Source of the DNA: a bacterium
GTDB taxonomy: Bacteria > Actinomycetota > Acidimicrobiia > Spongiisociales > Spongiisociaceae
Assembly (NCBI GenBank): GCA_028820935.1
Contig: JAPPHZ010000009.1
Coordinates: 1-64,000, forward strand
Reading direction: 5' to 3'
Length of the DNA: 64,000 bases
Part shown: positions 58,092-61,864 of the stretch, piece after piece
How the letters are laid out: every line of letters starts with the position of its first letter
Position numbering within the stretch: the stretch's first letter is position 1
Notes under the pieces: generated by a model
What the model was told of the DNA's origin: nothing
Database searches by the model: none
What the model saw: the letters and a program-made list of their open reading frames with translations, nothing else
Program-made: the position numbers and the translations under genes

Positions 58092-58817
58092 TCAAGCGGT
58101 GGTGGCCAAGGAATCGCTCTTCCTGATGAACGCTATGCCTAGCAGGATGACCCAGGCGACTTGAACGAACACGGTGAGATTACCCAAGAGGTACAGCGTA
58201 AAGATGCTGCCTTCTATGAAGGTCGCGATGAACAGGAGGAAAGACCCGACAATCGCCGGGGCCACGCCCAGCCAGATCGCGAGGGGCTTGTCCGGACCGA
58301 TCAGGTCGACATTCATAAGGGACACAGCCCAGAATGCCACACCCACCAGGGCAAGTACCGTCGCGAAGAGACCGACTGCCCCTCCTATCACCGTGAATAT
58401 GACGGCTGTAGCGATGGATTCTCCCGATGCTATGCCCTCAGCCGGTGAATAGCTAAGCGTCACAGATGTCAAGAAGCTCATCGCAAGGGACACGGTACGC
58501 ACTGCCAATGCGATCGTGAGGAAAAGGAGACCGATCTTCCTCAGGTACCCTTCACTGCCCGTGTCCCCTAACACTTCCTTAACGCCCCAGAAACCCAGCA
58601 GCATCCCGAAGGCGGCTATGAATCCGATGTATGTTAAGAGACTCACCTGGGTACTATCCGGCACCATAGCCTGAATGGCAGCCTGCATTGCAGCTTGGAC
58701 TCCGTCAGGGTTTTCTCCAGGAAAACTGCCCGGCCGAATACTACTAACTACAACGTCAACCACAGGCCCTACGATCAATAGCCACCCCGTGATTCTGCCT
58801 AGTCTCGCCCGTGTCAC
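58092..58817 (-). CDS. Unknown membrane protein, atypical base composition
   Basis: A 241-residue protein with about six to seven membrane helices, loosely similar in layout to DUF4386-type proteins (N-terminal RITGWLLIVGPVVD and long hydrophobic segments separated by short loops). No functional residues are recognisable. GTG 58817 has GGGGG about 6 bp before it. The gene is far less GC-rich (about half G+C) than its neighbours and uses codons rare elsewhere in the window. It lies near tRNA-Lys, so recent acquisition is likely. Confidence 0.7.
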   Translation of the reverse strand: MTRARLGRITGWLLIVGPVVDVVVSSIRPGSFPGENPDGVQAAMQAAIQAMVPDSTQVSLLTYIGFIAAFGMLLGFWGVKEVLGDTGSEGYLRKIGLLFLTIALAVRTVSLAMSFLTSVTLSYSPAEGIASGESIATAVIFTVIGGAVGLFATVLALVGVAFWAVSLMNVDLIGPDKPLAIWLGVAPAIVGSFLLFIATFIEGSIFTLYLLGNLTVFVQVAWVILLGIAFIRKSDSLATTA

Positions 58818-59123
58818 TTTTGCCCCCTTCGTAGCATTGGTTTCCGTTGTCAGTAGGTAGGTTCACGTGCTGAAACCTACGGTAGCCTCAGATCACTTCA
58901 GGGTTCTCAGGACTTGGGTCCAGCATAGTTCTCCCCCACACTCGCGCAAGTCATATAAGCGTCGACGATGTGCATTCACCTGCCCGAGAATGTGTGGTCG
59001 CCGTGAATTGGCCCCGTTCCGGCACGTCGCACCTCCGGGAGCGGCTACGTAGATCGAACTTGGGCGAGGGAGAGACTCGGCGGCGGTTGGAGTCTCACCT
59101 GATCCCTTGGGACGAAGCCGCGG
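58818..59123. other. Gap with one inverted repeat
   Basis: About 300 bp between the atypical membrane gene and tRNA-Lys. GTAGGTT (58857-58863) and AACCTAC (58874-58880) form a 7-bp inverted repeat about 40 bp upstream of the membrane gene start; it may be an operator. No gene is recognised in the rest. Confidence 0.4.
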
Positions 59124-59196
59124 TGGGCCCGGCGGGAATCGAACCCGCGGCCTTCGGATTAAAAGTCCGCTGCTCTGCCTACTGAGCTACAGGCCC
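59124..59196 (-). tRNA. tRNA-Lys (anticodon TTT)
   Basis: Read on the minus strand: acceptor GGGCCTG pairs with CGGGCCC through one G-T, D arm GCTC/GAGC, anticodon loop CTTTTAA (anticodon TTT), and T arm with TTCGATT. The anticodon stem has one apparent mismatch at its outer pair (27-43). The discriminator is A and CCA is not encoded. It decodes AAA and AAG. Confidence 0.9.
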
Positions 59197-59270: not shown

Positions 59271-61076
59271 GTGATCACGTTCGGATACTCGGGGCTGCCT
59301 CCGCCGGCCATGGCGGATGATGAGTTCCTGGACGGGTTGTTGGAGCAGGGTTACCAGGCCTTCGAGTTGGCCTTTACGAGGTCCTTCCCGTGGAACGAGC
59401 GGCGCTGCAGCTCCTTCGGGAAGAAGGCGGCCGAACGAGGGATCCCGCTCTCCATCCATGCCCCCTATTTCGCGGTCCTCACCCTTACCGACGAGGACCG
59501 GGCGCGGAGATGCCGGGGAGCGATCGAGCACACGATGAAGCTGGCCGCCGAGATGGCCGCTCGGGTGGTGGTGGCCCATCCGGGCGGGCGGCGCAAGGAG
59601 GAGCCGGGCTTCCTGATGGACACCATACGGCACCACCTCGATCAGCTGGCGACCAAGGTGTCCGACCTAGGGGTCGGCCTGGGCCTCGAGACCACGGGGC
59701 GGGCCTCCCAGATGGGCAGCCTCGGCGACATCGCCGTCCTCGGGGCGGAGTATCCGTTCGTACGGCCGGTCATCGACTGGGCCCACGTCCATGCCATCAG
59801 CGGAGGAGGCCTCCGGTCGGTCGAGGCGTTCGAGGCGGTGCTCGGGTTCCTTCGGGAGAACTTCGCCGGGTGGAAGATCGATCCGCTCCACACCCAGTTC
59901 AGCGATGTCCTGTACGACGAGACCGGCGAGATCCGCCACCTCCCCTACGGCCGGGGCGACCTCCGGATCACACCCCTGGTCGAGGCGGCCCACCGGGCCG
60001 GATTCCGGATGACCGTCATCTCCGAGTCCCGCGACGAACCGTCCCACCACATGATCCAGACCGAGATCAACAAGGCCTTGGCGTCCGTGACCGCGCCGGA
60101 ACCGCCCGGACGGCCCGCCGCGAGCGGCCGCGTCTCCTTCCCGACCGTACCCAGGGCCAAGGAGACCGAGCAAGGATACGCCCTGGCCGGCTACGACGAC
60201 CCCCTGCGGCTCTCCAACCTCGACAAGCAGTTCTTTCCCGACGGCTACACCAAAGGCGACCTGATCTCCTACTACGCCTCCGCCGCGCCGATGTTGCTTC
60301 CCCACCTGGAGGATCGGGCGATTGTCATGGCTCGGTTCCCCGACGGTGCCGAGGCCGCCTTCTTCTACGAGAAGCAGGCCCCCGGCCATCAGCCGGCCTG
60401 GATGCCGCTGGTCCCGATCGACTCGGCCCATCGGGGCGCGGTGATCGAGTACGTGACCGCCGACCGGCCCGAGTCCCTCATGTGGCTGGCCAACATGGGT
60501 TGCATCGAGGTCCACCCCTGGCTCTCGCGGGTCCGGTCCCTCCATGCCCCCGACTTCGCGGTGTTCGATCTCGACCCCGCCGCGGGCTCGAGTTGGGACC
60601 AGGTGGCGGCTGTCGGCGGCCTCCTCCGCGAAGCCCTCGGCCACCTGCGGCTGAGGGGCTATCCGAAGACTTCCGGATCGAGAGGCATCCACGTCTACGT
60701 ACCTCTCGACCCGGTCCACGACTACGCCCGGGTCAGGATGTTCGTACAGCGGATCGGACATCTGCTGGCCGCCGCCAACCCGGAGAACGTGACCATGGAC
60801 CGCCACATTCCCAACCGTGCGGGGAAGGTGTACATCGACTCCGGGCAAAACCGGGCCGGCGCCACCATCGCGGCGGCCTACTCGGTGCGGCCCCGCGCCG
60901 GCGCGCCGGTCTCCACGCCGCTCCGGTGGGACGAACTGGATTCCATCGATCCGACGAGCTTCACCATCACCACCATCTGGGACCGGATCTCCCGCTACGG
61001 AGACCTGTTCGCGCCCGTGCTCCTGGGAGGCCAGCGGCTCGACCGGGCCGAGGAGGCGCTGGGAATACCCGGCTGA
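59271..61076 (+). CDS. Endonuclease IV / LigD-type polymerase fusion protein
   Basis: A 601-residue two-domain protein. Residues about 1-275 are a TIM-barrel AP endonuclease of the archaeal/thermophile Nfo type. The metal ligands are visible: H63 (LSIHAPYF), H103 (VAHPGG), E140 (GLETTG), D169 and H172 (IDWAHVHA), H207, H223 (RHLPYGRGD) and E252. After a linker, residues about 308-595 form a LigD primase-polymerase domain: LSNLDKQFFPDGYTKGDL, catalytic D433 and D435 (FDLDP), SGSRGIHVYVPL with H474, and KVYIDSGQNRAGAT with D523. No ligase domain is present. It could cut at abasic sites and fill the gap. GTG 59271 has no strong ribosome site. Confidence 0.9.
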   Translation: MITFGYSGLPPPAMADDEFLDGLLEQGYQAFELAFTRSFPWNERRCSSFGKKAAERGIPLSIHAPYFAVLTLTDEDRARRCRGAIEHTMKLAAEMAARVVVAHPGGRRKEEPGFLMDTIRHHLDQLATKVSDLGVGLGLETTGRASQMGSLGDIAVLGAEYPFVRPVIDWAHVHAISGGGLRSVEAFEAVLGFLRENFAGWKIDPLHTQFSDVLYDETGEIRHLPYGRGDLRITPLVEAAHRAGFRMTVISESRDEPSHHMIQTEINKALASVTAPEPPGRPAASGRVSFPTVPRAKETEQGYALAGYDDPLRLSNLDKQFFPDGYTKGDLISYYASAAPMLLPHLEDRAIVMARFPDGAEAAFFYEKQAPGHQPAWMPLVPIDSAHRGAVIEYVTADRPESLMWLANMGCIEVHPWLSRVRSLHAPDFAVFDLDPAAGSSWDQVAAVGGLLREALGHLRLRGYPKTSGSRGIHVYVPLDPVHDYARVRMFVQRIGHLLAAANPENVTMDRHIPNRAGKVYIDSGQNRAGATIAAAYSVRPRAGAPVSTPLRWDELDSIDPTSFTITTIWDRISRYGDLFAPVLLGGQRLDRAEEALGIPG

Positions 61077-61123: not shown

Positions 61124-61864
61124 ATGGCTGGCGACGCTACGGCATACCGGGTGGAGCACCTGGCCGCCGCGGCCGGGGTCGGGGTCGATACCATCCGCTA
61201 CTACCAGGGGATGGGCCTCCTCCCCCCCACCGACCGGGATGGTCGCTCGGTGGTGTACGGGAACGCCCACCTGACCCGGTTGCGAACCATCCGAGCCCTC
61301 GCCGATGATGGCTTCACCCTGGCCCAGATCAAGCGCCTCCTGGACGAGTCCGGGCATCCGCTCCTGGAATCGCTGGCCGGGGCCACAGTCGGCCTGGAGC
61401 GGGCCGAACTCGCCGAGCGATCCGGGCTTCCCCCCCATCTGGTGGACATTGCGGTGTCGGCCGGTCTGATCCAGCCACTCGGCGACGGTGCGGAGGAACG
61501 ATTCGCTCCCGACGTGGCACCGATGCTGGCCGCAGGTATGTCGCTGCTGGAGGCCGGGTTCCCCCTCGACAAGCTGGCGGCCCTGGCGGCCCGGCACGCC
61601 ACATCGGTGGAGAGCGTGGTGGACGCCGCCATCGACTTGTTCAACGACCACATCCGCGACAACCAGCCCCACGGGGCCGTCGAGACGGCCGAGATGTTCC
61701 GAACCCTCGTGGTCCACGTCACCCGTCTGGTGGCGCAGCACTTCCACCACACCGTGGTCACCCGGGTGAAGGAGCGGCTGGACGAGTCGGAGGACGCGGC
61801 CCTGGTCAAGGCACTCGAGGACATCGAGGAACGCCAGATGGTGATCCACACCGAGTGGCGATGA
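61124..61864 (+). CDS. MerR family transcriptional regulator
   Basis: A 246-residue regulator with an N-terminal MerR winged helix (HLAAAAGVGVDTIRYYQGMGLLPPTDRDG, then LTRLRTIRALADDGFTLAQIKRLL). A long C-terminal helical domain of about 165 residues follows, with a repeated HTH-like part (LAERSGLPPHLVDIAVSAGLI). No metal-binding cysteines are visible, so it does not look like a metal sensor. It overlaps menF by 4 bp, so it may control the menaquinone genes, though this is inference. Confidence 0.88.
   Translation: MAGDATAYRVEHLAAAAGVGVDTIRYYQGMGLLPPTDRDGRSVVYGNAHLTRLRTIRALADDGFTLAQIKRLLDESGHPLLESLAGATVGLERAELAERSGLPPHLVDIAVSAGLIQPLGDGAEERFAPDVAPMLAAGMSLLEAGFPLDKLAALAARHATSVESVVDAAIDLFNDHIRDNQPHGAVETAEMFRTLVVHVTRLVAQHFHHTVVTRVKERLDESEDAALVKALEDIEERQMVIHTEWR

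Follow-up and report, generated by a model that had tools for sequence, protein, structure and literature searches.

The question raised by this locus is what a single protein would do that joins a domain resembling endonuclease IV (EndoIV, Nfo) to a primase-polymerase of the LigD type and carries no ligase. The locus lies in a window of 64,000 nucleotides, the whole stretch of DNA analyzed here, which is part of contig C9 of a 3.3 Mb genome in 51 contigs. The named relatives of this genome are metagenome-assembled Acidimicrobiia. The original prediction read the chain as a one-protein enzyme for the incision and gap-filling steps of base excision repair (BER).

The fusion protein and its neighborhood

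The gene occupies window positions 59271–61076 on the forward strand as a single uninterrupted frame, stop codon included, that begins with GTG and encodes 601 amino acids. The ORF, the Pfam matches and the predicted structure define an EndoIV-like TIM barrel followed by a LigD-type primase-polymerase (Pol), all on the forward strand. The barrel spans residues ~1–275 (59271–60095) and is recognized by PF01261, by structural matches and by ligand mapping. An alignment places a linker with the semi-conserved motif GRxxASGxVxFP at residues ~276–304 (60096–60182), and the Pol domain comprises residues ~305–601 (60183–61073), as assigned from PF21686, TIGR02778 and structural matches to 5dmu and 6sa1. 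In the Pfam scan of the chain, AP_endonuc_2 covers residues 25–264 (E 1e-25) and LigD_Prim-Pol covers residues 327–580 (E 8e-86), whereas no ligase domain was detected in the Pfam or NCBIfam scans. The whole-chain model, obtained by AlphaFold2 with 27 homologues, has a pLDDT of 91.7 and a pTM of 0.84. The predicted union of endonuclease-like and LigD polymerase domains on one ligase-free chain is confirmed, with both Pfam domains present in a conserved fusion.

The upstream neighbor is a divergent tRNA-Lys(ttt) gene (59122–59196, reverse strand), which lies outside the system. Downstream, a MerR-family regulator (61124–61864, forward strand; PF13411, 2e-20) shows no sign of membership in it. 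A hydrophobic ORF of 241 residues with no Pfam match is located upstream of the tRNA gene (58092–58817, reverse strand).

No paper describing a fusion of an EndoIV-like domain with a LigD Pol was found in the open-access literature. PMC7719229 mentions 20 additional domains on Ku/LigD proteins, and an earlier notice of the architecture is therefore possible.

Conservation and evolution of the fusion

Relatives were found at seventeen loci of the genome-contig collection with 56–94% identity, mostly at full length. The original prediction held that other proteins of this architecture were worth seeking. When 395 genomes of the class were searched with a profile, the fusion was located in 92 of the 138 genomes of the window's order, in a few of them as contig-end fragments. 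The same search found no fusion elsewhere in the class, where the other orders gave Pol matches only. In a search of the phylum with the barrel alone as the query, the same TIM-Pol order was identified in two further families (f93 and f96); family f89 has the reverse order, Pol-TIM, and family f97 a barrel that stands alone. No viral homologues were found, and the defence-system models gave no match.

A sequencing error that joins two frames, which the original prediction had itself raised, is excluded by independent assemblies that carry the same full-length frame at 52–95% identity. Nor do we give any real weight to a fusion that arose by chance or recently and has no joint function, or to an assembly artefact. 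A few copies are broken by frameshifts or scaffold gaps, but dozens of independent assemblies from different families have the gene whole and both domain orders occur, and this conservation refutes the idea. That the two domains are naturally joined in either order argues strongly for an EndoIV-type nuclease and a LigD-type Pol working on one shared DNA intermediate; until now this nuclease–polymerase link was known from mycobacterial proteins that are separate chains.

The barrel tree pairs the two TIM-Pol groups as sisters and places the stand-alone and Pol-TIM barrels outside them. To give two opposite domain orders, the domains must have been joined twice or more, or else a rearrangement took place. 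For the Pol partner, single and repeated origins were compared with the fragment rows REV_L112 and REV_L109 left out, and neither topology was favored (AU p 0.20 and 0.48). Genus g31 has a Pol-only version in which the linker motif SVASGLxAFPE is kept (L062:1936-3270, L063:1940-2947). These genes probably lost the barrel, since they retain the fusion linker; their basal position within the clade of the order in the Pol tree means that the barrel-free Pol may instead be the ancestral state.

Two carriers have damaged copies. An apparent gene fission in genome G313 is an artefact, as both halves end at scaffold N-runs. In its contig C1 (L060, L061), nominally a single-contig genome, N-runs join distant pieces and cut the fusion in two, so the gene order of this genome is not trustworthy. 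The copy in G186:C81 (L064:1069-2857, the same record as L018) is frameshifted near residues 220–237 and is either a pseudogene or an assembly error.

The polymerase domain

The Pol domain scores 240 bits with TIGR02778 (NCBIfam ligD_pol; cut-off 214.7) and 288 with PF21686 (cut-off 27.4). Across 42 different fusions D433, D435, D523, H474, K466, R516, R540 and K328 are invariant, and N316 and K319 are kept in 41. The catalytic residues are D433, D435 and D523, and the 5'-phosphate pocket is formed by N316, K319 and K328; they align with the catalytic aspartates and the 5'-phosphate pocket of Mtb PolDom, which consists of Asn13, Lys16 and Lys26 (PMC8656161). E140 of the barrel and D433, D435, H474 and D523 of Pol, the residues singled out in the original prediction, are at the positions named, and all five are invariant across the 42 homologous fusions.

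The C-terminal half of the model matches the Methanocella NHEJ polymerase 5dmu (Z 36.9) and Prim-PolC 6sa1 (Z 36.2) equally well, and the closest solved sequence is the Methanocella paludicola Pol (5dmu, E 3e-52). The Loop 3 extension of Prim-PolC is absent: the end of the chain matches residue 308 of 6sa1, in which Loop 3 comprises residues 313–333. Short-gap specificity is credited to Loop 3, which the NHEJ enzyme Prim-PolD does not have (PMC5663958, PMC7442782). The fused Pol is not a Prim-PolC, as it has no C-terminal Loop 3 extension. The parallel with mycobacterial Prim-PolC drawn in the original prediction fails on this loop and on the presence of a separate Prim-PolC-like protein and LigC in the same genome. 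That protein, which has a C-terminal extension, is encoded on contig C45 near the LigC homologue (PRK08224, over the cut-off).

The EndoIV-like barrel

The likeness of the barrel to EndoIV lies in the TIM-barrel fold, the metal ligands and a conserved tyrosine. The best structural matches of the N-terminal half of the predicted model are with endonuclease IV (2x7v, Z 26.3, 2.8 Å over 266 residues; 4hno, Z 26.2), and epimerase-like structures come next with Z about 24–25, the ketose epimerases reaching about 24. When profiles were aligned with M. tuberculosis EndoIV and with the Nfo proteins found in the order, eight of the nine metal ligands proved to be present (H63, H103, E140, D169, H172, H207, H223 and E252) and Y66 to be the equivalent of EndoIV Tyr72. 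The ninth ligand, Asp229 in E. coli numbering, is replaced by I221; the adjoining E220 is invariant and could stand in as a metal ligand. The reference ligand list is that of an EndoIV in PMC13113976. All of the ligands present other than H207, together with Y66, are invariant in the 42 fusions, and position 207 is His in 31 of them and Gln in 11. The view that all visible metal ligands are in place is thus borne out for eight of nine EndoIV ligands; it does not extend to the Asp229 equivalent, and at H207 it does not extend to every fusion.

The barrel differs from EndoIV in sequence, being only about 16% identical to the solved enzymes. It scores 24.7 bits with the Nfo model, versus a cut-off of 129.65, and reaches the cut-off of no Nfo model; canonical Nfo proteins of the order are also mostly under 129.65 (60–143 bits). 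TIGR00587 is matched by 26 of the 27 members of the barrel family, and Nfo is the nearest named family. In the barrel tree a very long branch leads to the family, whose clade is distinct from that of the order's Nfo proteins, and a separate canonical Nfo is present in 76 of the 78 good genomes of the order. Since the barrel is below the cut-off, forms a separate clade and coexists with ordinary Nfo, we regard it as an additional, diverged EndoIV-like sister family that is not filed as Nfo and that may work like EndoIV.

This divergence bears on a reading in which Pol is the sole repair activity and the barrel serves as a scaffold that binds DNA or protein, or as a sugar-isomerase-like enzyme acting on small molecules. 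The low Nfo score, the replaced Asp229 and variable H207, the structural closeness of epimerases (Z about 24 versus 26), the phosphomannomutase and thioesterase genes adjoining stand-alone relatives, and the barrel-free Pol of genus g31 are all in keeping with it. A non-catalytic barrel in particular owes its place among the explanations to the loss of Asp229 and to those phosphomannomutase neighbors. We nonetheless consider this reading improbable, as seven ligands and Y66 are invariant in 42 fusions and the barrel is joined to a DNA polymerase in two domain orders.

Association with Ku, LigD and ligases

Ku is present in 57 of 61 fusion-positive versus 6 of 20 fusion-negative near-complete genomes of the order, counts that ignore kinship. 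By genus the proportions are 42/46 and 9/15 (p 0.01, in a test that likewise ignores kinship). Outside the order Ku is found in all ten fusion genomes tested, and three small Pol-TIM genomes, which have Ku, contain no LigD-type Pol other than the fusion. Four near-complete fusion genomes have no Ku; two of them represent one genus (G038, 100% complete; G062, 95% complete).

Full LigD was found in none of the 92 fusion genomes of the order. The full PE-Lig-Pol protein, in open frames of 833–936 residues, occurs in eight genomes, all fusion-negative and Ku-positive, and it adjoins Ku in the three loci read (L183, L184 and L189). This pattern is what would be expected if the fusion and LigD were alternatives serving Ku.

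In 10 of the 17 fusion genomes read, a stand-alone ligase adjoins Ku. Five of these belong to the order (G042 L180, G001 L181, G086 L187, G034 L185 and G237 L191) and five do not (Pol-TIM L204 and L205; f96 L206, L207 and L210). Two of the Ku-adjoining ligases were scored, and both are above the cut-off of TIGR02779, the LigD ligase domain. Ku has no adjoining ligase in the window's genome (L177), in G270 (L178), G013 (L179), G007 (L182) and G026 (L190) of the order, and in two f93 loci (L208 and L209). The fusion gene adjoins Ku in none of the loci read.

The PE domain is absent from 80 of the 92 fusion genomes, the window's own among them, and present in 12; replacement of PE is therefore not a sufficient account of the barrel in every genome. 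Some f3 and f4 genomes contain, beside the fusion, Pol-less PE-Lig proteins (L215:1089-2759, L216:611-2140, L217:799-2289 and L219:967-2418), a further split form of LigD.

The original prediction had pointed to the Ku and LigD ligase genes of the window's genome as informative. Ku is encoded there on contig C33, whereas the only LigC/LigD-type ligase is the C45 LigC homologue. A second ATP-dependent ligase is found on contig C30 and an ordinary Nfo at C9:227784.

Proposed function

The co-occurrence with Ku, never together with full LigD, suggests a role in end joining. We favor, at a probability of roughly one half (0.52), an enzyme whose two domains process DNA ends and fill gaps within a split NHEJ system that depends on Ku. 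Ku would hold the break, and the barrel would strip 3'-blocking groups, 3'-terminal residues or end-proximal abasic sites. This cleaning would supply a 3'-OH for Pol and a sealable nick for the ligase, which is the job of the PE domain of LigD. Pol would grip the 5'-phosphate, such that the barrel–Pol chain would form the processing half of LigD, and a separate ligase would seal. A second role in BER, on single-strand gaps and abasic sites, may exist. More tentatively, and with somewhat less confidence than in the enzyme's role, we suggest a distinct end-joining architecture of Ku, a stand-alone ligase and a bifunctional EndoIV-type nuclease/Prim-Pol in both domain orders, in which the barrel replaces the LigD 3'-phosphoesterase.

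Known systems provide precedents. The PE domain of LigD converts a 3'-phosphate to a 3'-OH and trims 3' ribonucleotides (PMC8656161). The fusion shares with LigD a homologous Pol with all catalytic and 5'-phosphate residues and the association with Ku, but its chain has an EndoIV-like TIM barrel instead of ligase and PE. NHEJ in which Lig, Pol and PE are encoded by separate genes is already known (PMC4797286). The split archaeal system of Methanocella paludicola resembles the present one in its Pol and its separate ligase; it differs in having a stand-alone PE, whereas here an EndoIV-like barrel is fused to Pol. In the mycobacterial Prim-PolC/LigC/EndoIV BER complex the same kinds of enzyme are paired outside LigD, yet EndoIV and Prim-PolC are separate proteins there. 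EndoIV, which likewise cleans 3' ends, was the best end-processing nuclease for a Prim-PolC/LigC reaction in vitro (PMC5663958).

That complex also lends plausibility to the one-protein BER enzyme of the original prediction, as EndoIV and Prim-PolC cooperate in mycobacterial BER and EndoIV co-purifies with mycobacterial LigC (PMC5663958). The barrel would then incise 5' of an abasic site or clean a 3' end, Pol would fill a gap of 1–3 nucleotides, and LigC or another ligase would seal. The conserved 5'-phosphate pocket fits this scheme, and B. subtilis LigD, together with an AP endonuclease, can contribute to the repair of AP sites (PMC4770248). The four Ku-less genomes that keep the fusion are consistent with it. 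They also count against split NHEJ, as do Ku without an adjoining ligase in the window's genome, the location of the fusion gene away from Ku in every locus read, and the changed metal ligand of the barrel. BER stays a serious rival because of the Ku-less genus (G038, G062) and that missing Ku-linked ligase. We nevertheless rank it as unlikely and not as the first choice: the fusion tracks Ku and excludes full LigD, a separate Nfo is nearly always available, the barrel is diverged, and the Pol domain has no Loop 3 in a genome with its own Prim-PolC-like protein and LigC.

If the Ku association is functional, the split, Ku-dependent NHEJ enzyme would constitute an alternative end-cleaning module for end joining and explain how Ku genomes without LigD can work. 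It would also offer a compact two-activity enzyme for asking whether BER and end joining share machinery. The close association of the fusion with the break-binding protein Ku suggests that, in this little-studied group of actinobacteria, it belongs to an alternative set of tools for repairing chromosome breaks by rejoining.

Stand-alone relatives of the barrel

Stand-alone relatives of the barrel lie in a tight gene row with phosphomannomutase (L104:5481-8051, L106:4083-6495), accompanied by a thioesterase-family gene where scanned, and their function in this row may differ. A further stand-alone relative, with 33% identity, is located on the unannotated 21.8 kb 'Klebsiella pneumoniae' plasmid NZ_CP061967.1 (L220:3968-4858), a record that may be misassigned.
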